NCBI GenBank assembly: GCA_030528715.1
Contig: JAUMYJ010000014.1
Coordinates: 1-34,199, forward strand
Direction of reading: 5' to 3'
Source: Bacteroidales bacterium
GTDB taxonomy: Bacteria > Bacteroidota > Bacteroidia > Bacteroidales > Bacteroidaceae
DNA: 34,199 nt
Both the position numbers and the translations under genes were made by a program. Positions 9,396-25,497 of this stretch are shown piece by piece; position 1 is the stretch's first letter, and the number at the start of each line of letters is the position of its first letter. Under the pieces are notes generated by a model. The model saw only the letters and a list, made by a program, of their open reading frames with translations, made no database searches and was not told the DNA's origin.

Positions 9396-9402
9396 AGCAA
9401 AG

Positions 9403-9486: not shown

Positions 9487-9526
9487 AATTTTACTGTTTG
9501 CAATTCATAGTTCAAAGCATAATTAG

Positions 9527-9609
9527 TGCCCAGGAAAAGACTCGAACTTTCACGTCATTACTGACACTAGTACCTGAAACTAGCGCGTCTACCATTCCGC
9601 CACCTGGGC
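9527..9609 (-). tRNA. tRNA-Leu (CAG)
   Basis: An 83-base class II tRNA with a long variable arm. Acceptor GCCCAGG pairs with CCTGGGC. Anticodon stem CTAGT/ACTAG encloses loop TTCAGGT, giving anticodon CAG for CUG. The discriminator is A and CCA is not encoded. Confidence 0.93.
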
Positions 9610-9644
9610 GTTTTTTTTACGCTTATGAATTGCTTCATCATGTG

Positions 9645-9717
9645 AGCGGAAAACGAGACTCGAACTCGCGACCCCAACCTTGGCAAGGTTGTGCTCTACC
9701 AACTGAGCTATTTCCGC
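9645..9717 (-). tRNA. tRNA-Gly (GCC), copy 2
   Basis: Identical 73-base copy of the gene at 9323-9395 and first gene of the operon, about 50 bases downstream of the predicted transcription start. Anticodon GCC, discriminator U, no encoded CCA. Confidence 0.95.
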
Positions 9718-9805: not shown

Positions 9806-10256
9806 CTCTACGACCATTTTTTTTGTAGAAAATGCGATTTTAAGCGAGGCCACCTTAGAACACAGCACAAAGCAAGCGCAATCGTGCATTTACTCTAAGG
9901 CTTTTTAAGCACAAGCGACTTTTACAACGTATATTCACGAGCAAAGTTGTTAACATACTTAGCCTAATAAGAAGAGGCTTATGACACATAAGCTAGGCTC
10001 CATTCATTGTGCCACGACACGAAACAAGTGTACCACGTTATGGTACACTTGTTTTCAGTCTGGGTACAATTGTGCCTTAACACGATACACCATGTTAGCC
10101 CTAAGTATGGCCATAGTAAGTAAAAGGAAATACAACACAATAGTAGCTTATTGTACAACCTAGCTAATACTTACATTTAGTCTCTTAAAACTCTCGAATA
10201 AATGCGTTTGGCACCTCACACGTTGGGCTCATAGCTCGCCATATAAAGAGATTAGC
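9806..10256. other. intergenic region between ilvC and the tRNA operon
   Basis: About 450 bases without a credible gene. The only frame of note, 9981-10163 (+), is stop-free largely because a 21-bp periodic array runs through it. The region holds that array and its inverted repeat (listed separately). A weak long-range inverted repeat, CCTTAGA 9853-9859 with TCTAAGG 9894-9900, is followed by CTTTTT on the + strand. I see no convincing ilvC terminator other than the array hairpin. Confidence 0.6.
10000..10104 (+). repeat. degenerate 21-bp tandem array A, with 14-bp inverted repeat
   Basis: Units begin at 10000, 10021, 10042, 10063 and 10084, each 21 bases. Opening hexamers are GAAACA (10021), GGTACA (10042), GGTACA (10063) and GATACA (10084). 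The 10042 unit reads CACTTGT then AGTC at the same offsets as CATTTGT and AGAC in arrays at 18243 and 25414. Arms 10022-10035 and 10041-10054 pair perfectly (14 bp, 5-base loop) and fall on two adjacent units. No function is known to me. Confidence 0.55.
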
Positions 10257-11300
10257 CTAGTTATTCTCTGGACGTAGCTTACGCACAGCACGGCCAGCTT
10301 GCCACATTTCGCTCTCACGCAAAGCCGTTAATTCGGCTTCGAGTTTTTCGCGATAGTCTGGCTGAGAGTTGCTATCAATACTTCTCTGAGCTTCTTCGCC
10401 TGAGGCTACACTTGCATAAAGCTGCTGCATCACGGGCTTGATAGCATCGTGAAAAGGCCCCATCCAGTCTAGTGCACCACGCTGAGCGGTAGTAGAGCAG
10501 TTAGCATACATCCAGTCCATACCTTTGGCCGCTATAAGCGGCATTAGCGATTGTGTGAGTTCTTCTACCGTTTCATTAAAAGCCTCCGAGGGGGTATGGC
10601 CATGCTCGCGCAACACCTCATATTGCGCTAAAAACAAGCCTTGTACAGCGCCCATCAGTGCGCCACGCTCACCCGTAAGGTCAGAGTATACCTCACGCTT
10701 AAAATCAGTACGGAACATATAGCCCGACCCAATACCAATACCCAATGCTAGCGTACGCTCGGTGGCACGCCCCGTAGCATCTTGAAACACACCAAACGAT
10801 GCATTTAAGCCACGCTTTTCGAGAAAGAGTGTGCGCAATGACGTTCCAGAGCCCTTAGGCGCAACTAGGATAACATCAATGTCAGTAGGAGGCACTATGT
10901 GTGTACGCTCCTTGTAAGTAATACCAAAACCATGTGAGAAATAAAGGGCTTTACCTGCTGTGAGGTATGGTTTAATAGTAGGCCAAGCATCAATCTGAGC
11001 CGCATCTGACAGGAGCATGCAGATGATAGTGCCACGCTGAGCCGCCTCTTCAAGAGAGAAGAGCGTCTCACCAGGCTTCCAACCATCGGCCACCGCCTTG
11101 TCATAAGTCACACCTGCACGCTGCCCTACGATGACGTTAAAGCCATTGTCACGTAGGTTAAGAGCTTGACCTGGCCCTTGCACACCATAACCGAGCACAG
11201 CAATCGTCTCACCACGGAGTGCATCAAGAGCTTTTTCAAGAGGAAATTCGTCGCGGGTAACTACTTCTTCGAGTGTACCTCCAAAATTAATTTGCGCCAT
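10257..11300 (-). CDS. ilvC: ketol-acid reductoisomerase
   Basis: Second enzyme of valine and isoleucine synthesis: it rearranges and reduces acetolactate or acetohydroxybutyrate with NAD(P)H and Mg2+ in the cytoplasm. At 347 residues it has the length of the short class. The Rossmann motif GYGVQGPGQ begins at about residue 37; most class I enzymes have GYGSQGHAQ here, so the Pro is a lineage variant. The knotted C-terminal domain shows DLTGERGALMGAVQGL, with the metal-binding Asp and Glu, and later NETVEELTQS. It is the last gene of the ilv operon, 22 bases after the thioesterase stop. Cofactor preference cannot be decided by eye. Confidence 0.96.
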   Translation of the reverse strand: MAQINFGGTLEEVVTRDEFPLEKALDALRGETIAVLGYGVQGPGQALNLRDNGFNVIVGQRAGVTYDKAVADGWKPGETLFSLEEAAQRGTIICMLLSDAAQIDAWPTIKPYLTAGKALYFSHGFGITYKERTHIVPPTDIDVILVAPKGSGTSLRTLFLEKRGLNASFGVFQDATGRATERTLALGIGIGSGYMFRTDFKREVYSDLTGERGALMGAVQGLFLAQYEVLREHGHTPSEAFNETVEELTQSLMPLIAAKGMDWMYANCSTTAQRGALDWMGPFHDAIKPVMQQLYASVASGEEAQRSIDSNSQPDYREKLEAELTALRESEMWQAGRAVRKLRPENN

Positions 11301-11322
11301 AATTATTAAGTATCAGTTTTTT

Positions 11323-12102
11323 TTACAGATTATGCGTATTATGCATTACGAAGACCAAGCAGATACGACAGACAACCGCAGTGGTATGGTCGCTACGCAT
11401 AGCATGTACCTCGAAGTGGTGTGTGAGCGGTGCAGGCATTTCGTGATAATAGTGAAGCGTATCACCAAAATAGGCTTCTGCACTATATGCCACTTCGCAA
11501 CGCGTAAGTTGATATGTACGATGAAAGTCTAAATCAAAAAAATCTAAGGCATGACTAATATAGCGAATGCTATTGACGTGCCCATTGATGTCAAGATCAG
11601 AAAAGCGTACTGCTAAACTAAAAACAGGTGTTTGCTTGTGTACACGCACACGCTCTGGCTTGGGTAGTGCACACTCATGAGCCACACAACATTGAGCCAT
11701 ACGCCCTTGGTCAAAAGCACATAGGTCAGTAGCCAAGCGTGAAGTTGTGTCAATGAGCGACCATACCGTAAGTGCACGAGCAAAAACCACGCCACGGCTA
11801 TCTGTAAGGCGATAATGACGATCTGAAAACTGACGATAACAGCTGGCAAACCACGTATGAATATCGTAAGTTTCGTGTGTCATTGGCATTATATTTAGCT
11901 CTATTTGCAAACGCGCCAACACCCAAACTTTGCCATGTGCTATCATATCGCGATAACCATAACCTACACTACCCGCATGCACATTGGCACAACGTAGTAG
12001 CAAATTGCCCAGCACGCTCACGGCCAAATGGCCTGTGGCATCTTCTTGAAAAGGCTCTACAGCAAAGGTATAATGCCCTTGCTTGGCTTGTTTCTCGTCC
12101 AT
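11323..12102 (-). CDS. acyl-ACP thioesterase (FatA/FatB-like, double hotdog)
   Basis: Hydrolyses fatty acyl-ACP to release free fatty acid in the cytoplasm. The 259 residues cover two hotdog folds: an N-terminal half with a long helix around NLLLRCANVHAGSVGYG, and a C-terminal half with the catalytic-type DLDINGHVNSIRYISH, in which the Asn and His match the plant and bacterial acyl-ACP thioesterase active site. It lies between ilvN (6-base gap) and ilvC (22-base gap), so it must be co-transcribed with branched-chain amino acid genes. I recall the same order in Bacteroides. The placement suggests, but does not show, a link between branched-chain precursor supply and branched fatty-acid turnover. 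Confidence 0.88.
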   Translation of the reverse strand: MDEKQAKQGHYTFAVEPFQEDATGHLAVSVLGNLLLRCANVHAGSVGYGYRDMIAHGKVWVLARLQIELNIMPMTHETYDIHTWFASCYRQFSDRHYRLTDSRGVVFARALTVWSLIDTTSRLATDLCAFDQGRMAQCCVAHECALPKPERVRVHKQTPVFSLAVRFSDLDINGHVNSIRYISHALDFFDLDFHRTYQLTRCEVAYSAEAYFGDTLHYYHEMPAPLTHHFEVHAMRSDHTTAVVCRICLVFVMHNTHNL

Positions 12103-12108
12103 AGTCTG

Positions 12109-12666
12109 TTAATCGTTAAGTGACTGACGGACATGCTCTCGCTGTGCTAAGAAATCTTCGAGTGGCTCTTCGGGACATCGGGTGATAGCAATTGCTCCCG
12201 AGCGCACGTATTGCAAGACACAATCATAAGGTTTAAGTGCTTCATGTAGCGACACAATCGTTTCGCTAAGGCCAGAGAGTGTCACGATAGCATAGACTTG
12301 ATTGACCTCTATGATACTAGCATTATGTAGGCGGATAGCCTTAGATATTTCAGGGCAATCCGTTAGCTTGTTAGTAGCTACTTTGAACAGGCCTGTATCC
12401 ATCACAAAAACTTTATCTTGCTCAAAATAGTGCGCTTGTAGCACGTCTACTTTCTTTTCAATTTGCTTCGTGACGATACGTATCGTAGCCTCATCGGTAC
12501 GTGTAGTAATTGTATAGCGATGAATACCTGAGATGCTCGAAGTAGAGGCATTGATACTATCAATACTAAGCATACGGCGTGTAAAGACGTGGGCTACCTG
12601 TGTGAGTACACCCGCACCACTCTCTGAGAAGATGATGATGGTATAGTTATTTTGCGTAGTTTCCAT
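12109..12666 (-). CDS. ilvN: acetolactate synthase small (regulatory) subunit
   Basis: Regulatory partner of IlvB that confers feedback control by valine and stimulates catalysis. At 185 residues it has an N-terminal ACT domain at about 5-80 (IIIFSESGAGVLTQVAHVF, then RMLSIDSINAS, corresponding to the usual GVL...F..R..NI.S pattern) and a C-terminal second ACT-like half. It starts 4 bases after ilvB ends and is followed 6 bases later by the thioesterase, in a tightly packed operon. The valine-site Gly and Asn cannot be judged by eye beyond the conserved GAGVL loop. Confidence 0.95.
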   Translation of the reverse strand: METTQNNYTIIIFSESGAGVLTQVAHVFTRRMLSIDSINASTSSISGIHRYTITTRTDEATIRIVTKQIEKKVDVLQAHYFEQDKVFVMDTGLFKVATNKLTDCPEISKAIRLHNASIIEVNQVYAIVTLSGLSETIVSLHEALKPYDCVLQYVRSGAIAITRCPEEPLEDFLAQREHVRQSLND

Positions 12667-12670
12667 GGTG

Positions 12671-14377
12671 TTATGTATGCTTTATTTCGAGTATCATATC
12701 ATTAATTGCACTACCTGGGCAGCACATCGGCATCACTGTTCCCTCTTGCTCTACACAAACCTCGAGTAAATAAGCTCCATCGGTCGACATCATCTCTGCG
12801 ATGGCCTCATCTAAGTGTTCTCGCTCGGTCACACGACGACTCTTGATACCATATCCTGCGGCTATGAGCTGAAAGTTAGGGTTGCGCATCGGAGAAAACG
12901 AATAGCGATGATTGAAAAACATTTCTTGCCACTGACGTACATTACCAAGATACTCATTGTTAAGTAGCACCATCTTAACAGGGCAACCATATTCTAATAT
13001 CGTGCCAAACTCTTCGATAACCATCTGTATACCTCCATCACCGACCATAAGAATAACGTCGCGCTCGGGAGCTCCAAATGTAGCTCCAATAGCTGCTGGG
13101 AGTCCATAGCCCATCGTTCCCATACCACCCGAGGTGAGCAAGCTACGCTTCTGGCTAAACTTAAAGTAGCGGGCTGCCATCATTTGATTTTGCCCGACAT
13201 CGGTCACACACACAGCTTTGTGCCCCGTAGCTTCGCTAATGCGATGGATAGCCTCGCCCATTTTGATAGGGCCTGTTGTGGGGAAGAGTTCGGGCTCTAC
13301 AACTCTGATGCGCTCACGCTCATGATAAGGCTCAAAGCTAGCACGCCATACACGATGGTCTTTCTTTTTGAGTAAACGTGTTACCGCTGGAAGTGTTACC
13401 TTGCAATCACCCAACACAGCCACGTCTACCTTAACATTTTTGTTAATCTCAACAGGATCTATATCAAAGTGGATTTTTTTAGCCTGCTTTGCATAGGTGT
13501 CAAGTTTGCCAGTAATACGATCGTCAAAACGCATACCTACGGCTATAAGTAAGTCACACTCTTGTGTCTTTATATTGTTTGCGAGTGTACCATGCATACC
13601 CAGCATACCCATATTGAGCGGATGAGCAGAGGGAAGTGCAGAGAGTCCCAGCAGCGTACAGCCAGCAGGCATATCGGCTAATTCTATAAAGGCACGTAGT
13701 TCTTCTTGTGCTTCACCCAGCTCTACGCCTTGCCCTACAAGCACTAATGGACGCTGAGCATTGTTAATGAGTGTCGCAGCTGATGCTATAGCCTCCTCAC
13801 ACATCGGAGGTACGGGCACATAGCTACGAATGTGGTTGATCGTTTGTGGTAAATATTCGGCAAGTTCAAGCTGTGCACTACGCGTAAAGTCGAGCACAAC
13901 AGGGCCAGGACGACCACTCCTCGCGATATAGAAAGCACGACTTACAGCCCAAGCGACTTCACTAGCCGAACGTATCTGATAGCTCCACTTCGTGATAGGC
14001 TGTGCTACATTTACGACATCGCACTCTTGAAAAGCATCACTACCGAGTAGATGTGCGGCTACTTGACCCGCAATTACCACGATAGGTGTACTATCCATCA
14101 GAGCATCTGCAATACCTGTAATCGTATTCGTAGCCCCAGGCCCACTAGTAACCAAGCAGACACCAACTTTTCCACTCACACGTGCATAACCCTCAGCAGC
14201 ATGTGCTGCGGCCTGCTCATGACGCACCAAAATATGCTGCAAGCTATCAGTATAATCAAAAAGTGCATCGTAGGTAGGCATAATAGCCCCTCCAGGATAG
14301 CCAAAGAGCGTTGTAACGCCCTCATGAATGAGCGAGCGCATCAAGATATGTGCTCCTGAAATTAGCTCCTTTGCCAT
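12671..14377 (-). CDS. ilvB: acetolactate synthase large (catalytic) subunit
   Basis: Thiamine-diphosphate enzyme that condenses pyruvate with pyruvate or 2-oxobutyrate, the first common step of branched-chain amino acid synthesis. Motifs in order: FGYPGGAIMPTYDAL, RHEQAAAHAAEGYARVSGK with the catalytic Glu, TSGPGATN, a central FAD-binding domain, then VGDGGIQM to LLNNEYLG, which is the GDG...NN ThDP/Mg site. The frame is open to ATGs at 14425/14422, but those 16 codons are A/T-rich and overlap the ilvD stop. MAKELISG from the ATG at 14377 matches the family N-terminus, giving 568 residues. It lies directly downstream of ilvD and upstream of ilvN. Confidence 0.96.
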   Translation of the reverse strand: MAKELISGAHILMRSLIHEGVTTLFGYPGGAIMPTYDALFDYTDSLQHILVRHEQAAAHAAEGYARVSGKVGVCLVTSGPGATNTITGIADALMDSTPIVVIAGQVAAHLLGSDAFQECDVVNVAQPITKWSYQIRSASEVAWAVSRAFYIARSGRPGPVVLDFTRSAQLELAEYLPQTINHIRSYVPVPPMCEEAIASAATLINNAQRPLVLVGQGVELGEAQEELRAFIELADMPAGCTLLGLSALPSAHPLNMGMLGMHGTLANNIKTQECDLLIAVGMRFDDRITGKLDTYAKQAKKIHFDIDPVEINKNVKVDVAVLGDCKVTLPAVTRLLKKKDHRVWRASFEPYHERERIRVVEPELFPTTGPIKMGEAIHRISEATGHKAVCVTDVGQNQMMAARYFKFSQKRSLLTSGGMGTMGYGLPAAIGATFGAPERDVILMVGDGGIQMVIEEFGTILEYGCPVKMVLLNNEYLGNVRQWQEMFFNHRYSFSPMRNPNFQLIAAGYGIKSRRVTEREHLDEAIAEMMSTDGAYLLEVCVEQEGTVMPMCCPGSAINDMILEIKHT

Positions 14378-14408
14378 AGGCTTATTATTATGAAAATTAT
14401 TCTTTTTA

Positions 14409-16223
14409 TTATTCTTCGGCATCATCTATCAAACGTACAGCTCCTTGATCTGCCGAGCTAACCATAGACGCATAGGCACGTAGCGCAGCAGACACCTTAC
14501 GTTTGCGTATTTTAGGCGTCATCGGTCTAGCTGCTAGCTCTTTGTCAGTAAGACGCACATTGATAGTGCGGCTAGGAATATCTATATCTATTATATCACC
14601 AGTTTGCACTTTTCCAATATTACCACCTGCTGCAGCTTCGGGCGATATATGACCGATACTTAGTCCAGAGGTGCCTCCTGAAAAGCGCCCATCAGTAATC
14701 AATGCACACTGTGTACCTAGCTGGCGACTTTTAATGTAAGACGTGGGGTAAAGCATTTCTTGCATGCCTGGGCCTCCCTTAGGGCCTTCATAGGTAATCA
14801 CAACGACATCTCCTGCTTGCACTGTGCCATCTAGGATACCACGGCACGCTGCATCTTGTGAGTCAAAAACTTGTGCACGTCCAGAAAAAGTCCAAATACT
14901 TTCATCTACCCCCGCTGTTTTAACTACACAGCCTTTTTGAGCGATGTTACCAAAAAGTACGGCCAAGCCACCATCTTGGCTATAAGCATGTGCAATATCG
15001 CGTATACAGCCATTGACACGATCTGTATCTAAGATTTTCCAACGTGCATCTTGGCTCCCCATTGTAGTGCTAAACCTGCCACCAGGGGCACTACGATAAA
15101 TGCGCTCAGCCTCTTTATCTATAACAGCCCGACAAATATCGTAGCGCACAATATCTTCACCCAAAGTACTTCCGTTGATACGATAACACGTTGGGTCAAT
15201 TAGTCCTCCTTTGTGTAGCTCACCTAGTAGAGCCATTATTCCGCCTGCCGCATTACACTCTTGGATAGAATAGCGATGTGAGTTTGGAGCTAGTTTACAC
15301 AAGCAAGGGACTTTTCGGCTCAGTGTATCAATATCATTGAGTGTAAAGTCTACCTTAGCCTCATGTGCCATAGCCAAAAGATGCAAGATTGTATTAGTCG
15401 AACCACCCATCGCAATATCTAATGTCATAGCATTGAGAAAAGCTTGTCGTGTAGCAATATTACGCGGTAACACACGCTCATCACCTTCCTCGTAATATTT
15501 ATAGGCATTCGCTACAACGAGAGCTGCAGCATCTTTGAATAGCTGGATACGATTGACGTGCGTAGCCAATATTGTGCCATTACCAGGTAAAGACAAGCCG
15601 AGTGCTTCGGTCAAGCAATTCATAGAGTTTGCTGTAAACATGCCCGAACAACTGCCACACCCAGGACATGCGCTAGCCTCAACCGTTGCAAGCTCTTCAT
15701 CGCTCACACGCTCATCTGCTCCCATTACCATCGCAGTTACCAAATCGATATTGTTACCATCATAGGTGCCTGCCTCCATAGGGCCACCACTTACAAATAC
15801 CGTAGGGATATTGAGACGCATCGCTGCCAAGAGCATGCCAGGCGTAATCTTATCACAATTACTAATACACACCAAAGCATCTGCCTTATGGGCATTGACC
15901 ATATACTCTACACTATCGGCAATAAGGTCACGACTAGGTAGCGAATACAACATGCCATCGTGCCCCATAGCGATACCATCGTCAATCGCAATCGTGTTAA
16001 ATTCAGCGGCATAGCACCCTAAAGCCTCTATCTCGCGTTTGACAAGCTGTCCTACCTCGTGCAGGTGCGTGTGGCCTGGCACAAATTGTGTAAACGAGTT
16101 GGCTATCGCGATAATTGGTTTACCAAAGTGTTCGCGCTTCATACCCCCCGCAACCCATAGGGCACGCGCACCTGCCATACGTCGGCCTTGCGTACTAAAC
16201 GCACTCCTTAGTCTATGCTTCAT
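14409..16223 (-). CDS. ilvD: dihydroxy-acid dehydratase
   Basis: Iron-sulfur enzyme that dehydrates dihydroxy acids to the 2-keto acids of valine and isoleucine. The start is the ATG at 16223, giving [20 protein letters not shown], the usual N-terminus; the frame is open to 16280 but the extra 19 residues look untranslated. Length is 604 residues. Cluster-binding Cys occur in [11 protein letters not shown] and [21 protein letters not shown]; the C-terminal part shows the substrate-site GRFSGGT. It is the first gene of the ilv operon, with a TATATTTG -7 box at 16318-16311. No leader peptide rich in branched-chain codons is visible between box and start, so classical attenuation is not supported. 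Confidence 0.96.
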
Positions 16224-16310
16224 GCGTATCTTATATTTTTTCCTAAATTTCCATACATTTACATCAATGCTTTTATTCACCGCAAAGAAGTAAAGTGTTC
16301 AATTTGCAGG

Positions 16311-16318
16311 CAAATATA
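16311..16318 (-). promoter_or_regulatory. ilv operon -7 box
   Basis: TATATTTG on the minus strand matches TAnnTTTG. No TTTG lies at the usual 19-21 spacing; the nearest is about 26 bases upstream. Predicted leader to ilvD is about 80 bases. The box begins 2 bases past the upstream kinase terminator. Confidence 0.5.
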
Positions 16319-16320
16319 AG

Positions 16321-16344
16321 AAAAAACTGCCGATTTAAGGCAGT
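16321..16344 (-). terminator. rho-independent terminator of the histidine-kinase unit
   Basis: On the minus strand ACTGCC, a 7-base loop and GGCAGT are followed by a run of six T (shared with the stem end), 59 bases after the kinase stop. It is placed so close to the ilv -7 box that the hairpin DNA forms the spacer region of that promoter. Confidence 0.8.
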
Positions 16345-16403
16345 CAAACTTGCATAGAGAGTAAATAAAGTACAAAAGCACCTCTCAATGTAACCAAAAT
16401 GAC

Positions 16404-17549
16404 TTATAAAACAATTCGAAAGCAGGTACCACGCCCGACTTCACTATATTTAACAAAGAGCTGTCCATGATGATAGCGCTCTACAATACGCTTGGCTAAG
16501 GACAAGCCTAGTCCCCACCCGCGCTTCTTTGTAGTAAAGCCCGGCTCAAAAATACGTTTATATAACTTACGAGGTATTCCCTTTCCTGTGTCTTGTAAAT
16601 CTATTATGATATGCTTATCATCACGTTTAGCTGTGAGTGTAATAGTGCCTTCTGCGCCTATCGCATCAATAGCATTGCGACACAAATTCTCAATAACCCA
16701 CTCAAATAACGGGGCATTAACTGCGCATAACAGTATAGGTGCTTCGTAATGTGTTTCAATACATACACGCCGAGGCATACGCTGCTGCATATAACATATA
16801 ACACGCTCTAATACCTCTACGAGATTACTCTCGCTAAGTGTTGGCACACTACCTATTTTTGAGAAACGCTCCGTTACAAGTTGCAAGCGCGCCACGTCTT
16901 TACCCATCTCACCCACAAGCGCATCATCAGGATATGTTTCTTTAAGTATTTCTACCCAAGCCATGAGTGACGAGATGGGGGTACCTAATTGATGTGCCGT
17001 TTCTTTGCTAAGACCCACCCACACCTTATTTTGCTCGGCACGCTTGGCACTTATAAAGGCCGAAAAAGCTAAAACAAAGAATACAGCAATAATAGCCAGC
17101 AAAGCATAGGGGTAGTAATAAAGGCGTTTAAGCACTGCACTTTCATCGTAAGCCACGGTAAGCGATCCAACCTCCATAGGCATGCGCATGTTATACCCAC
17201 GTGCTATCATAGCCTCGGCCTTAGAGCGTAGAGATGCAATAGAGTCTGCATGGGTAGAGGCATGGAGAGAAACATTACGATGTGTCAACACTTGACCTTG
17301 CTCAGAGAGCACAATAACTGGTATGCTCTGGTTGGCATTGATAACCTTCAACACCAAGCTAAGGTCGGTCGTTTCATCGGCATTATTGAGCGTAGTCATC
17401 GCTTCTGCCCAAAGTGCCATGTTACTCCGTTCAGTAGCCGCCAAATCACTCACGAAATGGTGAGAAGCAACCAAAGCTCCTACCGCTATAAGCATGGCTA
17501 CAAGATAGAGGTACCATTGCCTAACCCAATGCATCAGCATAGACATCAT
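16404..17549 (-). CDS. membrane sensor histidine kinase (orphan)
   Basis: A 381-residue sensor kinase. A transmembrane segment at about residues 10-30 is followed by a periplasmic sensor region of about 110 residues and a second membrane segment at about 145-165. The cytoplasmic part has the dimerisation/H-box with phospho-acceptor His at about 186 (ETAHQLGTPISSL), then the ATPase with the N-box ENLCRNAIDAIG, G1 DTGKGIP and G2 GWGLGLSLAKRIVE. There is no HAMP or PAS domain that I can see, and no response regulator beside it, so the partner is elsewhere. It follows engB after 11 bases and is probably co-transcribed. The signal is unknown. Confidence 0.9.
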   Translation of the reverse strand: MMSMLMHWVRQWYLYLVAMLIAVGALVASHHFVSDLAATERSNMALWAEAMTTLNNADETTDLSLVLKVINANQSIPVIVLSEQGQVLTHRNVSLHASTHADSIASLRSKAEAMIARGYNMRMPMEVGSLTVAYDESAVLKRLYYYPYALLAIIAVFFVLAFSAFISAKRAEQNKVWVGLSKETAHQLGTPISSLMAWVEILKETYPDDALVGEMGKDVARLQLVTERFSKIGSVPTLSESNLVEVLERVICYMQQRMPRRVCIETHYEAPILLCAVNAPLFEWVIENLCRNAIDAIGAEGTITLTAKRDDKHIIIDLQDTGKGIPRKLYKRIFEPGFTTKKRGWGLGLSLAKRIVERYHHGQLFVKYSEVGRGTCFRIVL

Positions 17550-17560
17550 CTAGGTTCTTT

Positions 17561-18166: not shown

Positions 18167-18187
18167 AGTGACAAGTTTGTTTATTTG

Positions 18188-18195
18188 CAAAGATA
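18188..18195 (-). promoter_or_regulatory. engB -7 box
   Basis: TATCTTTG on the minus strand matches TAnnTTTG. The predicted start is near 18181, about 15 bases before the engB ATG. No clear TTTG occurs 19-21 bases upstream. Confidence 0.55.
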
Positions 18196-18242
18196 CAACA
18201 AAGTTTTTTGTTATTGCCTAAGCCAACCTTCATTTCCACGAT

Positions 18243-18347
18243 TATATCTTTTGCCCGAAGACAGCAACCATTTGTATAAAGTCTCCAAACATTTGTCCGA
18301 AGACTTCGGACAAATGTTTGGAGACTGCAAGCAATACTTATCGTCTA
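18243..18347 (+). repeat. degenerate 21-bp tandem array B, with 23-bp palindrome
   Basis: Five consecutive 21-base units start at 18243, 18264, 18285, 18306 and 18327. At position 6 they read CTTTTGC, CATTTGT, CATTTGT, CAAATGT and CAATACT, and three of the five have GAC at positions 18-20. The 18243 and 18285 units also share CCGAAGAC. The 18285 and 18306 units form a palindrome with arms 18280-18302 and 18304-18326 (23 bp, perfect, 1-base centre). The array lies between the purine permease stop and the engB promoter. It matches arrays A and C in period and core. Confidence 0.65.
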
Positions 18348-18378
18348 CTAGCTCATTTGATAAGTTTTGACTTTGCTT

Positions 18379-18403
18379 ACACTAAGAAGAATGTGCTTAG
18401 TGT
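18379..18403 (-). terminator. weak hairpin downstream of the purine permease
   Basis: ACACTAAG (18379-18386) pairs with CTTAGTGT (18396-18403), with a 9-base loop. It lies about 35 bases after the permease stop, with no T-run on the minus strand. It could be a terminator. Confidence 0.3.
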
Positions 18404-18437
18404 GACACACCTTTTATAAAGAAAGCAGAACGAGAGG

Positions 18438-19754
18438 TTACATCTGCGCTTTGAATGCGTAAAGTAGCACCAGCATGATGCCCACGATCCAAAGTGTAAG
18501 GTTGATGTCTTTGTAATTACCACTAAGTACCTTGATGCCAATATAAGAAAGCATACCAAAGGCCATACCACTCGAAATGTCAAACGTAAGTACCATAAAA
18601 AGCATCGTAATAAAGGCAGGTAGTGCCTCGCTGATGTCGTTGAGCTTGATCTTGGGTACAGCGTCAATCATGAATACACCTACAATAATTAAAGCACTGG
18701 CTGTAGCGGCACTTGGCACTAGCAAGAAGACAGGGGCTAAGAATATGGCTATCAAGAATAAGCTCGCAGTAGTAAGTGCTGTAAGCCCTGTACGACCACC
18801 AGCGGCAATACCTGCTGTGCTCTCAACATAGGTCGTTACGGTAGACGTACCAATTGTAGCTCCAATGCTGGTAGCTACGGCATCAGCTAACATCGCTTGC
18901 TTGGCATGCTTGATATTGCCTTTCTTGTCAATCATCTCCGCTTTAGAGGCAGCACCAATAAGTGTGCCTAGTGTGTTGAATATGTCAATAAATACCAGCA
19001 TGAAGATAATGAAGATTAGTTTGAGGTCTAACTCTTTATAAAAAGGAGTGAAGTCAAACTGCAAGAAAGTAGGCGCGAGTGATTGAGGTGCTGATACGGG
19101 AGAGAAACCCTCGGGGAGAGGAACAATGCCAGCAATCAGACCTATCGCGGTGGTAATGATGATACCATAAAACAAGGCACCATTAACACCACGCTTTACC
19201 AGCGCACCACTAATGACAATACCTGCCATGGCCAATAGTGTGGTAGGCGTAAACTCGCCCAATTGTACCAATGTAGCCTCATTACCTGTAATGATGCCCG
19301 CACTTTTCAAACCTACGAAAGCAATAAACATGCCTATACCAGCCGATATGGCGTATTGCAGGTTGGTAGGTACACACTTTATGATAGCTTCGCGTACGTT
19401 AAATACAGTCAAAAGAATAAAGACAACGCCTTCGATAAAGACAGCAGCTAAGCCTACCTGCCATGAATAGCCCAAGGCTCCACACAACGTAAAGGCGAAG
19501 AAGGCATTGATGCCCATGCCAGGAGCTTGTGCAAAAGGCAAGCGCGCTACAAAAGCCATGAGTATCGTGCCAATAGCAGAGGCCAAAGCAGTAGCTGTAA
19601 ATACAGCACCTTTGTCCATGCCAGTGACTGAAAGAATGTCGGGGTTTACAGCCAAAATATAGGCCATCGTAAGGAAAGTGGTAAGGCCAGACATCAACTC
19701 AGTGCGCACGGAATGCTTACCACGAATAAAGCCTAAATAACGAAGAATATCCAT
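18438..19754 (-). CDS. NCS2-family purine permease (AzgA/GhxP-like)
   Basis: A 438-residue polytopic inner-membrane protein, nearly all hydrophobic helices. The N-terminus RGKHSVRTELMSGLTTFLTMAYI and the following FAQAPGMGINAFFAF are typical of the AzgA-like branch (adenine, guanine or hypoxanthine proton symporters). TSIGATIGTSTVTTYVES is the characteristic mid-protein motif. Which purine it carries cannot be read by eye. It lies 18 bases after the DUF5020 gene, which in turn follows a uracil permease, forming a nucleobase-transport group. Confidence 0.9.
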   Translation of the reverse strand: MDILRYLGFIRGKHSVRTELMSGLTTFLTMAYILAVNPDILSVTGMDKGAVFTATALASAIGTILMAFVARLPFAQAPGMGINAFFAFTLCGALGYSWQVGLAAVFIEGVVFILLTVFNVREAIIKCVPTNLQYAISAGIGMFIAFVGLKSAGIITGNEATLVQLGEFTPTTLLAMAGIVISGALVKRGVNGALFYGIIITTAIGLIAGIVPLPEGFSPVSAPQSLAPTFLQFDFTPFYKELDLKLIFIIFMLVFIDIFNTLGTLIGAASKAEMIDKKGNIKHAKQAMLADAVATSIGATIGTSTVTTYVESTAGIAAGGRTGLTALTTASLFLIAIFLAPVFLLVPSAATASALIIVGVFMIDAVPKIKLNDISEALPAFITMLFMVLTFDISSGMAFGMLSYIGIKVLSGNYKDINLTLWIVGIMLVLLYAFKAQM

Positions 19755-19772
19755 TGAGTATAATTTAGGCAG

Positions 19773-20486
19773 TTACTTAAATGTCCATTTGAGTGCAAGT
19801 GTAGGGTTCCAGCGGAGCTTGTTGTAGCCATAGACGAAGTTGTTGCTGATTTCTTGCTCTGTACCAATACTAAGGTTAAAGTCTTTGCTTACACCTTCGA
19901 GCTTGTTAAGGTTTAGCCAAAGTTGTGGTTCAGCTATAAATACCCAATTGTGTGTATGGTCGTTATCAAGCCAAAGGTCGGCAAAACCATTGAACGAAAA
20001 CATGCCATTGCGACCAAAATTTTTGTACCATACACCTGTGAGTTGTAAGTTATTGCGCTTCTTGTTACGAGCAATGTATTTGTAGAGTGTTTGTATGCTA
20101 AACCCTGCGGAATAGTCAGCTGCATTCCAAGTATAGGTAATACCTGCTAGGTAGGCGTTTTTGAATGAAAGGCTATTGTTGAGCCCACCATCGTATTCTA
20201 CATGTAAAGCAAAGGGAGATTTGCCAAGGTTAAACTCGCGAGCTATTTCCCAATAAGCCATCACCACACCATCTTTACGATAGTCCATGTCAACAAAGAA
20301 AAACGTGTTGCCATAGCGGTCGGGGCGAAACATCTCGACCGTAGTTGTGAGTCGTGGACGCGTTTGGTCGGTTTCGTAGATACTACGACCAAAGTCGTGG
20401 TGCAACTGAATGTTTTGAGCTACGGCAGGTATATTGACACCTACAATAGTAGCAATTGCAAGGACAAGGAAATGAATAACTTTCAT
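19773..20486 (-). CDS. DUF5020 family outer-membrane protein (Tsx-like)
   Basis: A 237-residue protein with a signal peptide (about 1-23, ending AVAQ) and a Tyr/Trp/Phe-rich beta-barrel body that ends in a strand reading LALKWTFK. It resembles DUF5020, which I recall as related to the nucleoside-specific channel Tsx. Position supports that: it lies between a uracil permease (74 bases upstream) and a purine permease (18 bases downstream). A reasonable inference is that it passes nucleosides or bases across the outer membrane to the two inner-membrane permeases. I found no -7 box before it, which fits read-through from the upstream permease. Confidence 0.82.
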   Translation of the reverse strand: MKVIHFLVLAIATIVGVNIPAVAQNIQLHHDFGRSIYETDQTRPRLTTTVEMFRPDRYGNTFFFVDMDYRKDGVVMAYWEIAREFNLGKSPFALHVEYDGGLNNSLSFKNAYLAGITYTWNAADYSAGFSIQTLYKYIARNKKRNNLQLTGVWYKNFGRNGMFSFNGFADLWLDNDHTHNWVFIAEPQLWLNLNKLEGVSKDFNLSIGTEQEISNNFVYGYNKLRWNPTLALKWTFK

Positions 20487-20560
20487 ACTTTCTTATTGAT
20501 TGAAATAATAAATGATTTTATACTTTGCGTACCTAAGATTAAATGGTTGGTATGTTCTTG

Positions 20561-21787
20561 CTAGCTGCTGGCTTTGGGTAGACGGTCGGCAGCCGTTTCG
20601 GGTAAAATGAGATTGAGTATTACAGCAACAACAGCAGATAAACCAATACCAGTGAGTGTAAAGTTACCAAACTGTAAGGCAGCTCCTCCAATACCAGTAG
20701 TAAGTGTCACAGAGATAATCACCATGTTGCGTGCACTACCAAAGTTTACGCGGCTGTTAAGTAGCGTAGAAATACCAGCTCCTGCAATCGTACCAAAGAG
20801 TAGTAGCATGATACCACCCAAAACCGCGGTAGGAATACTTGATAGCAGGGCACTAACCTTACCTATTAGTGAAAATACGATAGCCGTAACAGCTGCGATA
20901 CGAAAGACCACAGGGTCTGTCACTTTGGTCAGTGACATCGCCCCAGTTACTTCGGAGTAAGTCGTTACGGGAGGAGCACCAATAGCACCAGCTAGGCAGC
21001 AGGCCAAGCCATCGCCTGCCATCGTGCGATGTAGGCCAGGGTCTTCTACGAAGTTCTTGCCCGTAATGTTGTTGACGACATAGACGTCCCCAATGTGTTC
21101 AATAACGGGAGCTATGGCTACGGGTATCATAAAGAGGATAGGTTCCCAGCGTATATCGGCTGCCGTAGGTGTAATGAATTGTGGTAGAGCAAACCAATCA
21201 GCCTCATTAACTTTGGAAAAGTCTACGAGCTCTGGAAAGAATATCAAAGCCGCTATGTATCCTACTACAATGCCGATGAATATAGGAATGAGCTTGATAA
21301 TTCCTCGGGTATAGAGTGTCACGATGATAGCAGTGGCCAAAGCGATACCAGCAAGTGCCCAGTTGGTCTTAGCCATGTTTACAGCAGCAGGTGATAGTGA
21401 CAAGCCTATAAGCATAATTACAGGACCGATAACTACGGGTGGGAAAAGACGCTTGATAAAGCCAGTGCCTAGTGTACGTACGAGCAATGCCATAATGAGG
21501 TAGACGAGACCTACACCTATTAGGCCAAACAGTGTGCCACTCTGACCATAAATTTCGGTGGCACTCACGATAGGGGCAATAAAAGCAAAACTACTACCCA
21601 AGAAAATGGGCACTTTACCTTTTGATACAAAATGAAATAGTAGCGTGCCTATACCAGCCGAGAACAGAGCCGTAGAGGGGCTAAGACCGACAAGTAAAGG
21701 CACGAGTACTGTTGCGCCAAAAGCTACAAATAAATACTGAACACCCACTATCGTTTTTCGAGTGGGGGTAAGAATTAATTCGCTCAT
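20561..21787 (-). CDS. uraA: uracil/xanthine permease (NCS2/NAT family)
   Basis: A 408-residue inner-membrane proton symporter for a nucleobase. The frame is open from 21934, but the predicted promoter at 21858-21826 lies inside that extension, so the ATG at 21787 (MSELILTPTRKTIVGVQYLFVAFGA) is the start. The NAT signature region VIEHIGDVYVVNN carries the substrate-site Glu of the UraA-type EHIG motif, and TTYSEVTGA follows. The EHIG form points to uracil rather than xanthine, though I cannot exclude the latter. First gene of the nucleobase-transport group. Confidence 0.88.
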   Translation of the reverse strand: MSELILTPTRKTIVGVQYLFVAFGATVLVPLLVGLSPSTALFSAGIGTLLFHFVSKGKVPIFLGSSFAFIAPIVSATEIYGQSGTLFGLIGVGLVYLIMALLVRTLGTGFIKRLFPPVVIGPVIMLIGLSLSPAAVNMAKTNWALAGIALATAIIVTLYTRGIIKLIPIFIGIVVGYIAALIFFPELVDFSKVNEADWFALPQFITPTAADIRWEPILFMIPVAIAPVIEHIGDVYVVNNITGKNFVEDPGLHRTMAGDGLACCLAGAIGAPPVTTYSEVTGAMSLTKVTDPVVFRIAAVTAIVFSLIGKVSALLSSIPTAVLGGIMLLLFGTIAGAGISTLLNSRVNFGSARNMVIISVTLTTGIGGAALQFGNFTLTGIGLSAVVAVILNLILPETAADRLPKASS

Positions 21788-21825
21788 GAGTTGTTTTGGT
21801 ATTGTGTATTTTTTAGATTTTGGCG

Positions 21826-21858
21826 CAAAGTTACAAACAAGAAGGTTTTTAACCCAAG
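21826..21858 (-). promoter_or_regulatory. uracil permease promoter
   Basis: On the minus strand CTTG (21858-21855) is followed after 21 bases by TAACTTTG (21833-21826), a full -7 match. The predicted start is about 21818, with a leader of about 30 bases to the ATG at 21787. Confidence 0.6.
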
Positions 21859-21973
21859 AGAGAAGTACTGTTTTAACATTTACACCGCCCTTATTTAACA
21901 TTTGAAGCCCCCCAAAAAAGGGGAAATTAGACACGTAGGTTCACGTTTTGTGTTTTAAGCTTAGGACTCATCG

Positions 21974-24073
21974 TTAGGATATTGATGACCAATTATGCTT
22001 GTGGGCTTTTGTCATTTTGAGATGCTGCCATAGTAGCTGGTAGAGTGGTAGGCTCATATCGGGGTCACGTGCTAAAATTATTTGTGCCTGTTCACGTGCT
22101 TGGGATAATAGTTGGCCATCTTTGGCCAAGTTAGCTAGGCGGAGGTCGAAAGCGATACCACTTTGCTGTGTACCTTCAATGTCGCCTGGACCTCTCAACT
22201 TCATATCTTCTTCGGCTATGACAAAGCCATCGGTACTCTCAAGCATGATTTGCATGCGACGTTTCACGTTTTCACCGAGTTTATAGCTGGTTACTAAGAT
22301 ACAATATGACTGCTCTGCTCCACGTCCCACGCGTCCTCGTAGTTGGTGGAGTTGGGCAAGTCCAAAGCGGTTGGCACTCTGAATGACCATGACCGAGGCA
22401 TTAGGCACATTCACGCCTACTTCGATAACCGTAGTAGACACTAAAATATGCGTTTTATGCTGTGCAAAAGCTTGCATAGCTATCTCTTTTTCGGCCGCTT
22501 TCATTTTACCATGTAAGAAGCCTATATTGTGCTTTGGAAAGGCTTGACAAATCGTTTTATAGCCTTCTTCGAGACTCTGCATATCGGTTTTTTCACTCTC
22601 TTTAATGAGTGGATAGACGATGTACACTTGATGCCCTTTGGCTAGTTCTTGGCGAATACCATTAAAATAGCCCGCCGTATTGTCTTCATAGAAGTGTAGC
22701 GTTTTGATAGGCTTGCGCCCTGGTGGGAGTTGGTCTATGACTGATACATCTAAATCGCCATATACCGTCATGGCCAAAGTGCGTGGTATGGGGGTAGCCG
22801 TCATAACTAGCACATGCGGTGGAGTAGTGTTTTTATGCCATAATAGGGCACGCTGCTTTACCCCAAAGCGGTGTTGCTCGTCAATGATGGCTACGCCAAG
22901 GTTACTAAATACTACAGTGGGCTCTATAAGTGCGTGTGTGCCTACTAAGATATGTATGTGGCCTTGTGCTAAATCTTCTAATAGTTGTTTGCGCTGTTTG
23001 CCTTTTATGACACCTGTAAGTAAGGCTACGCGTAGACCGAGTGCCTCAACGAAACTATGTATACTAGCGTAGTGTTGTTCGGCCAATATTTCCGTTGGTG
23101 CCATCATGCAGGCTTGAAATCCATTATCTATGGCTAGAAGCATAGTCATTAGGGCTACGATAGTCTTACCACTACCGACGTCGCCTTGTACTAGACGGTT
23201 CATCTGTCGGCCAGTATTCATATCTATGCGTATTTCGCGTACTACACGCTTTTGAGCATCGGTTAGCTCAAAAGGGAGTATTTCATGGTAGAAGCGATTG
23301 AAGAAAATACCTACCTTGTCAAAGCGAAAGCCTTTGTAGCGTTGCTGACGCTGCTGAGCATAGCGCAAAATATCGAGTTGCAAGAAAAATAGTTCGTCAA
23401 ACTTTAATCGACGTTCGGCTTCGGGCAGGTCACTAGCAGATTGTGGGAAGTGAATGCGTTGCAGTGCTTTATAAAGTGGTAGTAATTGTAAGTTGCTTGT
23501 GATATGTGCTGGCAACATCTCTTGGGGAGGCTGTGAGGCTAGCCGCTCAAAGAGCGTGTAGATATAGCCTTGTAGTGTTTGTGATGTTACGCCAGCACGT
23601 TTCATGCGTTCAGTAGTGCTGTAAAATGCTTGTAGCCCCTGCGTATAGGGTAGCTCGCTATCAGTAGGGCTAAGGTCGGGGTGAGCTATGGATACGCTTT
23701 GATTGAAAAGCGTAGGCTTACCAAATACGATATACTCTGTACCAGCTTTGAGTTGTTTTTCCATAAAGCGGATACCTTGAAACCACATGAGCTCAATACT
23801 ACCACTGCCATCGCCAAAGATAGCACGTAGTCTACGCTTTCGCCCCTCTCCAAGAATTTCAAAACGATGAAGTGTACCACGTAGCTGTACAAATGGCATT
23901 CCCCCTGTAAGTTCGGCTATTCGATGTGTTTTTGTGCGGTCAATGTATTTGTAAGGGAAATAATAGAGTAGATCGCGTAGTGTACGTAGTTTTAACTCAT
24001 TAGCTAAGAGTTGAGCTCGTGTGGGCCCAACACCTTTGAGGTACTGCAAATCAAGTGATAAGAGGTCGTACAT
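21974..24073 (-). CDS. recG: ATP-dependent DNA helicase RecG
   Basis: Branch-migration helicase that remodels stalled replication forks and Holliday junctions. At 699 residues it has the usual order: N-terminal helix-hairpin region (LKGVGPTRAQLL), an OB-fold wedge domain (about 60-160), Walker A GDVGSGKT at about residue 297, DEQH box in IIDEQHRFG, MTATPIPRT, and the C-terminal helicase half with VSTTVIEVGVNVPNA and QLRGRVGRG, then LRGPGDIEGTQQSG. All key motifs are intact. It follows ispD after 15 bases in the DJ-1/ispD/recG operon. Confidence 0.97.
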   Translation of the reverse strand: MYDLLSLDLQYLKGVGPTRAQLLANELKLRTLRDLLYYFPYKYIDRTKTHRIAELTGGMPFVQLRGTLHRFEILGEGRKRRLRAIFGDGSGSIELMWFQGIRFMEKQLKAGTEYIVFGKPTLFNQSVSIAHPDLSPTDSELPYTQGLQAFYSTTERMKRAGVTSQTLQGYIYTLFERLASQPPQEMLPAHITSNLQLLPLYKALQRIHFPQSASDLPEAERRLKFDELFFLQLDILRYAQQRQQRYKGFRFDKVGIFFNRFYHEILPFELTDAQKRVVREIRIDMNTGRQMNRLVQGDVGSGKTIVALMTMLLAIDNGFQACMMAPTEILAEQHYASIHSFVEALGLRVALLTGVIKGKQRKQLLEDLAQGHIHILVGTHALIEPTVVFSNLGVAIIDEQHRFGVKQRALLWHKNTTPPHVLVMTATPIPRTLAMTVYGDLDVSVIDQLPPGRKPIKTLHFYEDNTAGYFNGIRQELAKGHQVYIVYPLIKESEKTDMQSLEEGYKTICQAFPKHNIGFLHGKMKAAEKEIAMQAFAQHKTHILVSTTVIEVGVNVPNASVMVIQSANRFGLAQLHQLRGRVGRGAEQSYCILVTSYKLGENVKRRMQIMLESTDGFVIAEEDMKLRGPGDIEGTQQSGIAFDLRLANLAKDGQLLSQAREQAQIILARDPDMSLPLYQLLWQHLKMTKAHKHNWSSIS

Positions 24074-24088
24074 CGTATGCGCGTGTGG

Positions 24089-24769
24089 TTAATCCTCTTG
24101 AGCGAGTAGTGTTTGGGCGAGTGCAAAGTCTAGTGGAGTAGTAAGCTTAAAGTTATGCACTTCCCCTTCGGTTAAGGCAATGTGTGTTCCTAAGGCCTCT
24201 ACCACCGAAGCATCATCTGTAAACTTCTTGCAAAAGGGTTGCTCGTAAGCTCTGCGTAGTAGCTCTAACCGAAAGGCTTGTGGCGTTTGTACAGCGCAGT
24301 AATGGCTACGGTCAAGTGCAGTGGAATGTCCATTGCTATGGCGTAGTCGCAAGCTATCTACTACTGGCACCACAGGTATGGCTGCACCATGTGCTGCCGC
24401 AGCTGCTATCACCCTATTTATCAAGTGTGTAGAGACAAAAGGTCGCACAGCATCATGCACCAGCACAATGTCTGTTGCTTTAGCATCGGTCAAAGCATTA
24501 AGTCCATTACATACAGAATGGTAGCGTGTAGCACCGCCCGAAACGAGGTGTAGAGGTGTAGTAAAGGCGTGTGCCTCACACAGCGATTGCCAATAGTCGT
24601 GCATCTCGGGGTGTAATACCAACACGATGTTAAATGCTATTGTACAATGCTGAAAGGCTTCGATCGTGTGCATTAGCACGGGCTTACCATTAAGTGGCAA
24701 AAACTGCTTGGGTAAAGTAGAGGCCATACGCTCACCTTTACCACCAGCTACAATAATGATGTGGTGCAT
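24089..24769 (-). CDS. ispD: 2-C-methyl-D-erythritol 4-phosphate cytidylyltransferase
   Basis: Third step of the MEP isoprenoid pathway: CTP + MEP to CDP-ME. At 226 residues it has the family size. The nucleotide-binding loop AGGKGERM (residues 8-15) is followed by the conserved LPKQFLPLNGKPV; VHDAVRPFV and the TPQAFRLELL segment are diagnostic for IspD, as is TDDASVVE. It sits between the DJ-1 gene and recG with 15-base gaps on both sides, so the three are surely one operon. Confidence 0.96.
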   Translation of the reverse strand: MHHIIIVAGGKGERMASTLPKQFLPLNGKPVLMHTIEAFQHCTIAFNIVLVLHPEMHDYWQSLCEAHAFTTPLHLVSGGATRYHSVCNGLNALTDAKATDIVLVHDAVRPFVSTHLINRVIAAAAAHGAAIPVVPVVDSLRLRHSNGHSTALDRSHYCAVQTPQAFRLELLRRAYEQPFCKKFTDDASVVEALGTHIALTEGEVHNFKLTTPLDFALAQTLLAQED

Positions 24770-24784
24770 CGGAAGTAAAGAGCA

Positions 24785-25333
24785 TTAAGGGCGTTGTAAA
24801 AGCATTGCCGTGCGAATTTCGTCAGCTTTTGCTTGTCCTAAAAAATGAGCTACGATAGCTAGTGCAAACTCAGGCGCTGCCGCAGGACCTTGCGCTGTAA
24901 TAACGTGACGATCTACCACAACGGCTGCATTTTCGATGGTAGCACCATGGAGTTCATTTTCAAAGCCAGGGTAGCATGTAGCACGCTTGCCGTGTAGTAA
25001 GCCATGCTTGCCCAGCACCATTGGGGCAGCACAGATAGCAGCACAAGTTTTCCCCTCTACTTGGTGCGTTAATAGGCATTTGCGTAGGCCCTCATGTGCG
25101 GCCAGGTGTTTGGCACCAGGCATACCACCTGGCAATATGAGCATCTCTCCAGCTTCGAGTTCTTGCTTACGAAATGCCGTGTCGGCTGTAATCGCTATAC
25201 CGTGTGCACCCGTTACGGTACGCGTGTTAGTGAGCGATGCAGCCTTGACTTCAAGGTTAGCACGGCGCAAAATGTCAAGTACACATACGGCTTCAATTTC
25301 CTCAAAGCCTTCGGCTAATACTAGGTAAATCAT
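24785..25333 (-). CDS. DJ-1/PfpI family protein
   Basis: A 182-residue class I glutamine amidotransferase-like protein of the DJ-1 branch (variously reported as glyoxalase III, deglycase or redox chaperone; activity not assignable here). Start at the ATG at 25333 (MIYLVLAEGFEEIEA), the standard DJ-1 N-terminus. The frame is open to 25462, but the extra 43 codons are only a read-through of the 21-bp repeat array. The reactive Cys is at residue 101 in AAICAAP, with the partner Glu in AEGFEE, and CYPGFE follows. First gene of the operon with ispD and recG. Confidence 0.93.
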   Translation of the reverse strand: MIYLVLAEGFEEIEAVCVLDILRRANLEVKAASLTNTRTVTGAHGIAITADTAFRKQELEAGEMLILPGGMPGAKHLAAHEGLRKCLLTHQVEGKTCAAICAAPMVLGKHGLLHGKRATCYPGFENELHGATIENAAVVVDRHVITAQGPAAAPEFALAIVAHFLGQAKADEIRTAMLLQRP

Positions 25334-25392
25334 AATAATAGTGCTATAAATAAGGAGTTTGTGGTGTGTGAGAAGCTGTACTAACTTAGGGG

Positions 25393-25497
25393 CAAAGTGT
25401 TGTGCCGTGTCTTGGTACATTTGTACACAGACGAGATACATTCGTGTCAGGTCTAGAAACATTTGTACCTAGGCGCGGTACAATGCGTTGAGCCTAG
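25393..25497 (+). repeat. degenerate 21-bp tandem array C, with inverted repeat
   Basis: Units start at 25393 (weak), 25414, 25435, 25456 and 25477. The last four open GGTACA, GATACA, GAAACA and GGTACA, and the middle reads CATTTGT, CATTCGT, CATTTGT and CAATGCG. The 25414 unit has AGAC at positions 16-19, the same offset from the core as in array B. GTACCTAGGC (25465-25474) and GCCTAGTAC (25492-25500) form an inverted repeat with one bulge, which could terminate pdxJ transcripts. The array lies 8 bases past the pdxJ stop. Confidence 0.6.

Follow-up and report, generated by a model that had tools for sequence, protein, structure and literature searches.

The three tandem arrays in the stretch of Bacteroidales DNA analysed here (34,199 nucleotides, hereafter the window) belong to a large family scattered between the genes of this bacterium and of many relatives. 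Array A occupies positions 10007-10090 (unit starts 10007, 10028, 10049, and 10070), array B positions 18251-18334 (18251, 18272, 18293, and 18314), and array C positions 25400-25483 (25400, 25421, 25442, and 25463), with no strand assigned to any of them. The initial annotation had located all three correctly, although it counted four to five units in each, where we find four full ones. It had also treated the units as a single family, whereas array B represents a second subtype.

Unit design and genomic distribution of the arrays

The unit is a degenerate 21-bp palindrome, with the consensus TTGTRYCnnGnCnnGRYACAn in type I (arrays A and C) and TTGTCYGnnGnCnnCRGACAn in type II (array B). The CATTTGT-like core described initially does recur, but it marks the point where two palindromes meet, so that the units read on both strands, and the AGAC or AGTC noted eleven bases further on is present as the palindrome's G-N-C centre. 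Successive palindromes abut with linkers of about 4 bp rather than unique spacers, which argues against a CRISPR array. Arrays A and C reached template scores of 40/44 and 42/44, with 1-4 of 11 in the windows beside A and 4 and 1 of 11 in those adjacent to C, while the units of array B, itself one of the 39 elements from which the unit matrices were built, scored 16.2, 16.7, 30.6, and 17.5 against -21.8 and -29.3 for its flanks. Searching the whole genome with a covariance model returned arrays A and B, both outside the training set, at E values of 4.3e-11 and 6.2e-12, and array C, inside it, at 8.8e-17; within the window the model matched the three arrays and no other site, array A being matched on both strands.

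The 21-bp periodicity and the further copies anticipated in the initial annotation were both borne out. Autocorrelation at lag 21 had its three highest peaks of the window in the arrays' gaps, where 45, 41, and 38 of 84 bases matched against a mean rate of 0.271, scores that are modest alone, since other lags gave 41-45 elsewhere in the window (e.g., 45 at lag 22); Tandem Repeats Finder detected none of the three arrays in the window. The decisive evidence comes from the whole genome, in which three cores spaced at lag 21 matched 146 times and the reversed pattern 3 times, and a two-unit type-I pattern gave 158 against 0 for the control. At least 64 sites are among the matches listed for this assembly, which is 71% complete. 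A scan of 333 kb recovered 16 elements, seven from the 39-element training set and nine new, and no element turned up in the larger scanned contig after its DNA was reversed or shuffled. Fourteen of the 16 had four positive-scoring units in strict 21-bp register, one had a degenerate third unit, and one had three units; clustering of single units on the scanned DNA produced 13 clusters of four, two of three, one of two, and none bigger.

All 16 scanned elements lay outside open reading frames (ORFs) of at least 100 aa, on contigs that are 86-88% coding. In the window, array A is flanked by a minus-strand tRNA cluster and a minus-strand ORF, and arrays B and C are each flanked by minus-strand ORFs; the longest ORF at array C (24785-25462) overlaps it, the true start probably being further inside. 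The co-directional minus-strand setting described initially thus applies to these three arrays but is not general: on the two contigs that were scanned almost completely, 11 of the 16 gaps were co-directional, three divergent, and two convergent, a distribution close to that of all gaps (orientation by ORFs only calls array A convergent, the tRNA cluster alongside making its setting co-directional). The fixed count of four and the strict placement outside genes are demonstrated for this genome only.

Among 30 type-I elements, conservation at the contact positions ranged from 85 to 100% (G.98, T.99, C.95, G.87, C.85, G.94, A 1.00, and C.98), with nearly free positions between them; the boundary letters AAG at the element edges were weak in this genome. 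The highest pairwise identity among the 39 elements was 76% over 84 bases, and 79% over the best 63 bases of the type-I elements, and half-sites were about as similar between elements as within one element (0.740, 0.738). Three loci (L053, L065, and L067) did not reach the template cut and stand outside the 40-element set, and an element containing Ns (L057) was left out of the identity, arm-pairing, adjacent-unit, and flank analyses.

Occurrence and variation in relatives

The same architecture, spelled in other letters, was present in 13 of 39 congeners and in 13 of 294 other genomes of the order, often with four units and with a period of 21 or 22; in genus g21, arrays occurred in 6 of 17 genomes. 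Across species the dyad was retained while the letters changed, with 89.1% of cells paired (0/500 shuffles), and several types coexisted within single genomes. In one relative genus, the blocks in orthologous gaps stayed in register and were spelled with GTTCG, GTTCC, or GTTGC letters, though not at every locus. For example, GTTCG occurred in none of the eight half-sites of each of two G228 arrays, and in 8/8 and 7/8 half-sites of their G241 counterparts. Of the four G228 arrays fetched, two carried GTTCC, one GTTCG as in its G241 counterpart, and one GTTCA, so the letters do not switch at all loci together. In genome G173 the best pairwise identity between copies was 0.97-1.0, and these near-identical copies had additional palindromic flanks of 21 bp; the near identity indicates spread or gene conversion (homogenisation).

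A mechanical count at 86 loci of other genomes, which often took flanking palindromes as an extra unit, gave four units at 35, five at 20, three at 17, and more than five at 14; three more loci, L074, L089, and L090 of G339, scored none but contain four units on visual inspection. Being built with four units, model R1 is biased towards four. For 13 of these 86 arrays in other genomes, 20 bases or more lay within an ORF of 120 aa or longer. No empty site was found in other g21 genomes at a second orthologous locus, one copy of which is in the opposite orientation, among those genomes, where the further matches (L226-L228) were proteins 42-64% identical. Two adjacent-gene coincidences (L055/L087 and L058/L079) placed arrays of other genera in the same gaps as in this genome and, with few loci involved, are judged not above chance. 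Exact-pattern matches in Desulfobacterales (L072) and Phycisphaeraceae (L073) were unlike the four-unit element, and a viral origin was rejected because the exact two-unit pattern had no match in the viral collection.

Candidate roles of the arrays

The arrays display the hallmarks of a protein-binding array, namely conserved contacts with free positions, dyad symmetry, and fixed spacing. Conserved contacts, low identity between elements, and the lack of arm pairing together fit a protein-binding array under selection better than they fit hairpins of RNA or copies of recent origin. Among the possibilities raised initially, DNA-level conservation in an array of protein-binding sites therefore appears to be the best-supported reading of the sequences, the fixed number of units being a further feature consistent with it. 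We give an even chance to the proposal that the arrays are putative protein-binding sites of fixed architecture with a chromosome-level role. Each of the four palindromic operators, spaced strictly at 21 bp, could hold a symmetric protein dimer, and four neighbouring dimers, separated by about two turns of the helix, would form one nucleoprotein complex. Such sites would be read by a DNA-binding protein devoted to them and evolving fast, different paralogues may serve the different subtypes of a genome, and the role would lie in organising, anchoring, or insulating the DNA and not in controlling adjacent genes. Against this stand the patchy presence described above (13/39 congeners; 6/17 g21 genomes), which would be odd for an essential function, the mixed letters of the G228 arrays, the near-identical copies in G173, and the fact that arrays of three and of at least five units are common in other genomes. 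The initial suggestion that 21 bases would place every unit on the same helix face agrees with the strict register in this genome but is weakened by the period of 22 in some families.

A broader proposal, of an undescribed Bacteroidales chromosome-organising system with dispersed four-operator stations, candidate readers of quickly changing preference, and sites at conserved positions rewritten in all units when changing reader, strikes us as rather doubtful at present. Extragenic palindromes are common; a fixed count and phase at orthologous positions with letter changes in all units is unusual. Matched and mismatched sites occur naturally among the arrays, which offers a way to find the candidate binding protein and to follow how the specificity of a DNA-binding protein and the scattered sites it reads change jointly. 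We know of little work on chromosome organisation in Bacteroidales, and a role of this kind would open that question in the order.

It is possible, though we regard it as fairly unlikely, that the arrays are a mobile repeat spreading in intergenic DNA, non-autonomous and of a MITE or REP kind, whose palindromes would be transposase or processing sites and whose copies in this genome would be old. The patchy distribution, the near-identical G173 copies with their palindromic flanks, the several types side by side in one genome, and the placement of 16/16 elements outside ORFs fit such a repeat, whereas this genome has no recent copies and yet keeps the contacts and the 21-bp phasing intact, and the element is held in register at orthologous gaps despite differing letters. 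The decaying mobile repeat suggested initially is unsupported here, given the low identity and the intact motif, although the G173 copies show that spread or homogenisation can happen. As for a partner, the Y1 transposase (PF01797) was found in 15 of 22 genomes but not in five bearers of arrays, namely the present genome (71% complete), G450 and G002 (both 99% complete), G228 (62%), and G173 (85%). None of 30 Y1 loci had an array nearby, either by a palindrome finder that itself missed two of the three arrays in the window or by the covariance model, which recovered all three, at E up to 1. These results, confined to the Y1 family, do not support RAYT as the partner. Likewise, no GTAG or CGTC tag was found at the hairpin foot among the conserved unit or flank positions of this genome.

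Operator sites for a conventional global transcription factor that controls adjacent genes are unlikely: there are multiple palindromic sites between genes, and 14 of the 16 sites precede a gene start on one side or both, in co-directional or divergent gaps, but two cases are convergent, the orientation classes resemble those of gaps overall, and the neighbours are unrelated, no Pfam family being present in more than four of 85 neighbouring genes.

A structured RNA or a transcription terminator of four hairpins, which the palindromes and the arm covariation across species might suggest, is very improbable. Array B contains a perfect 23-bp inverted repeat (18280-18326; arms 18280-18302 and 18304-18326), and adjacent units are weakly complementary in this genome (pair 1-2, z 2.8; pair 3-4, z 2.1). 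However, arm-arm pairing within units was 0.383 against 0.422 in shuffled sequences (1822 of 2000 shuffles equal or higher), with no complementarity beyond composition in this genome whether or not G-U was allowed; Rfam at the gathering threshold returned only tRNAs in seven sources, and arrays are present in divergent gaps too. Some single elements, e.g., L061, carry near-perfect inverted unit pairs that differ in topology, so no common fold is seen.

Finally, parS-like centromere sites bound by ParB are the least credible reading, for although half-sites of some relatives, e.g., TGTTTCAC, resemble the parS half-site, they are held apart by the G-N-C centre, and ParB as a partner is not supported by the ParB_N search, with 0/5 matches in the g21 bearers tested (assemblies 62-85% complete) and one match in each of the other 11 genomes, bearers and non-bearers.

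Comparison with known repeat systems

Our literature search found no description of such arrays. REP/BIME elements with RAYT are short extragenic palindromes present in dozens or more per genome, with species-specific letters and more than one family per genome (PMC3733652, PMC6006769). The REP/BIME likeness proposed initially holds for the broad kind, our arrays also being extragenic palindromes in many copies with letters varying by species, but not for the tested hallmark of RAYT beside the repeats, in view of the Y1 results; they also differ in being tandem, with four units in this genome and a fixed period of 21 or 22 bp, and in occupying orthologous gaps in register with differing letters. 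The BrickBuilt MITE of Porphyromonas gingivalis has a 23-nt unit, AGAYCATARTATCCTCTCRTRTG, in 1 to 22.8 copies, with a leader and a tail bearing terminal inverted repeats, and is reported from P. gingivalis strains only (PMC4596501). It shares with our arrays the order Bacteroidales, an intergenic tandem repeat, and a unit of 21-23 bases, whereas the arrays here have a 21-bp unit of other sequence in four copies in this genome. Plasmid centromere arrays (ParR/parC) also consist of tandem sites of about 20 bp bound in a multi-dimer complex, as one segregation-linked locus per plasmid, in contrast to the scores of chromosomal copies seen here. Noc and SlmA sites are palindromic and, like our arrays, scattered over the chromosome, but they are single sites, where those described here form four-fold arrays.

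Architecture and abundance of the palindrome arrays

Three intergenic gaps of the window, described in the initial annotation as carrying four to five tandem 21-bp units, do contain such units, but the count is four in each, in consecutive order at positions 10007-10090 (array A), 18251-18334 (array B), and 25400-25483 (array C). Arrays A and C are composed of type I units, a degenerate palindrome of the form TTGTRYCnnGnCnnGRYACAn, and array B of type II units, TTGTCYGnnGnCnnCRGACAn. The CATTTGT core and the AGAC or AGTC following it, which had been singled out as the conserved features, are present, but they correspond to the junction of two palindromic units and to the G-N-C centre of the palindrome, respectively. 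Autocorrelation at lag 21, computed in the window only, showed maxima exactly at the three arrays, although other lags reached a similar height. Tandem Repeats Finder reported none of the three arrays in the window. The matches of a covariance model trained on 17 elements, six of them from the window's genome (G000), were limited up to E 1 to arrays A, B, and C, which it matched on both strands. Array A adjoins four clustered minus-strand tRNA genes (9323-9717). A perfect 23-bp inverted repeat lies inside array B (18280-18326). Near-perfect inverted unit pairs were also observed in other elements, with a varying arrangement (e.g., locus L061).

Further copies, for which the initial annotation had proposed a genome-wide search, were found in the G000 assembly (1.64 Mb, 42 contigs, 71% complete, the window being contig C31), where the pattern of three cores at lag 21 gave 146 matches vs. 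3 in the reversed control. A two-unit type I pattern gave 158 matches vs. 0 in its control, and the covariance model identified at least 64 distinct sites among the matches listed (113, both strands), including arrays A (E 4.3e-11) and B (E 6.2e-12), both outside the training set. Contigs C9 and C30 (333 kb) were scanned nearly whole, so that loci were not picked by their arrays, using unit matrices from 39 elements, 7 of them on these contigs. Sixteen elements were detected, and none in reversed or shuffled C9 by the same scan. In fourteen, all four units scored positive in 21-bp register, the lowest values being 2.8 and 3.1, and the neighbouring positions scored strongly negative; in another the third unit was degenerate (-5.0), although all 84 positions were still matched by the covariance model, and one had three units. 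When single-unit matches on both contigs were clustered at the lowest cut, clusters held four matches in 13 cases, three in two cases, and two in one case, and no cluster was larger; 30 matches were isolated vs. 19 and 15 in controls. All 16 elements lay outside ORFs of ≥100 aa, the coding share of these contigs being 86-88%, and occupied 11 co-directional, 3 divergent, and 2 convergent gaps, the corresponding numbers for all 91 gaps of ≥120 bases being 50, 22, and 19. The arrays constitute a family of extragenic palindrome arrays whose count and phase are fixed in G000. When considering the 97 genes beside 49 arrays, 85 of which were scanned for Pfam, the commonest families each occurred in 4 of the 85 genes.

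Conservation of the units and candidate partner proteins

Among 30 type I elements of G000, the contact positions were 85-100% conserved and the intervening positions nearly free; a weak boundary signal flanked the arrays at -6 to -4 (A.81, A.69, and G.49). Best pairwise identity over 84 bases was 76% (all pairs of 39 elements), and type I half-sites were as similar between elements (0.740) as within one element (0.738), ruling out recent mutual copying in G000. RNA hairpins were also ruled out, since arm complementarity within a unit (0.383) was slightly lower than in shuffled arms (0.422), likewise with G-U pairs. The 36 type II units gave the same outcome. Each half-site instead resembles a sample taken independently from a single recognition motif. 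The cross-species alignment of 17 elements showed palindromic covariation of the arms, 89.1% of its cells being paired (0 of 500 shuffles).

Judged from sequence, the arrays are best explained as putative multi-dimer protein-binding sites under selection. Literature searches in an open-access library gave no description of such repeats among the papers listed, and they may bear a name in subscription papers; the nearest known systems are the REP/BIME elements (PMC3733652, PMC6006769) and the BrickBuilt MITE (PMC4596501). Regarding candidate partners, REP-associated transposase (Y1/RAYT) genes had no match in several array bearers, two of them 99% complete. Neither the covariance model nor a palindrome finder, which itself picks up a single one of the window's three arrays, placed an array near any of 30 Y1 loci. 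The ParB_N domain had no match in nine genomes of the relative genus g21, bearers and non-bearers alike (G241, G173, G228, G145, G068, G201, G086, G021, and G047; 62-94% complete), and one match in each of the 11 other genomes searched; genus g21 may have lost ParB, or its ParB may have diverged beyond the model.

Variation of the arrays among relatives

Type I letters were absent from 57 other genomes of the window's genus, and the same architecture occurred with other half-site letters: GTTTG in genome G043, GTTCG and GTTCC in genus g21, and GTTTC with GTACC in a roe-deer Prevotella assembly. The covariance model matched 13 of 39 congeners (some by one hit only) and 6 of 17 g21 genomes. Of 294 other genomes in the order, 13 gave matches, some with arrays of period 22; the order-wide matches spanned nine families, including the window's own. 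In a phylum sample of 296 genomes, matches were confined to G000, one family member, and one genome outside the class (E 9.0e-6). The order and phylum counts are lower bounds because 15 candidates per genome were scored under strict filters. An accessory or selfish element fits this patchy distribution. Unit number varied outside G000. More than four units (7-13 by mechanical count) were seen at L116 (genome G705) and at L199, L211, and L212 in the window's genus, some with period 22.

Array loci of g21 species were linked by blastn into orthologous sets. In the first (L148 in G228, L147 in G241, L149 in G173), four units are all in register in the aligned gaps, and GTTCG occupies 8/8 half-sites in G241, 7/8 in G173 (the other being ATTCG), and 0/8 in G228, which carries GTTCC, GTTCA, or ATTCC. 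In the second, L154 (G228) and L165 (G241) are linked via both flanks and L189 (G173) via one, with GTTCG in 7/8 half-sites of G241 and 0/8 of G228. In the third, L162 (G228) is linked by one flank to L183 (G241) and by the other to L192 (G173) and L152 (G265); here, G228 resembles G241, with GTTCG or one-letter variants. G173 and G265 carry GTTGC units in that same register, with one array block in these two being a different palindrome. The fourth array examined in G228, L186 with GTTCA, had no counterpart among the loci compared. Letters at orthologous gaps therefore differ across all units of an array, yet arrays within one genome need not share them, as G228 shows. These mixed letters slightly reduce the likelihood of the boldest reading, an undescribed Bacteroidales chromosome-organising system with sites rewritten between fast-changing readers, which we consider less likely than not; they leave the odds of the other readings as they were.

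In G173, 10 of the 12 arrays examined were GTTGC elements almost identical to one another (over 63 bases, best pairwise identity 0.97-1.0). They contain three or four units, additional palindromes flank them in register with the 21-bp period, and individual units are flipped between arrays that are otherwise similar; these properties fit spread or gene conversion. The flips concern single 17-bp units in G173 arrays sharing the same linkers (L155, L163, L187-L193, and L195; e.g., L192, L189, and L191), as though a recombinase or template switching inverted hairpin loops. At L187, L188, L191, and other loci of this genome, CCCTTAAGGG and CCCCTAGGGG occur in outer 21-bp blocks that are in phase with the inner units.
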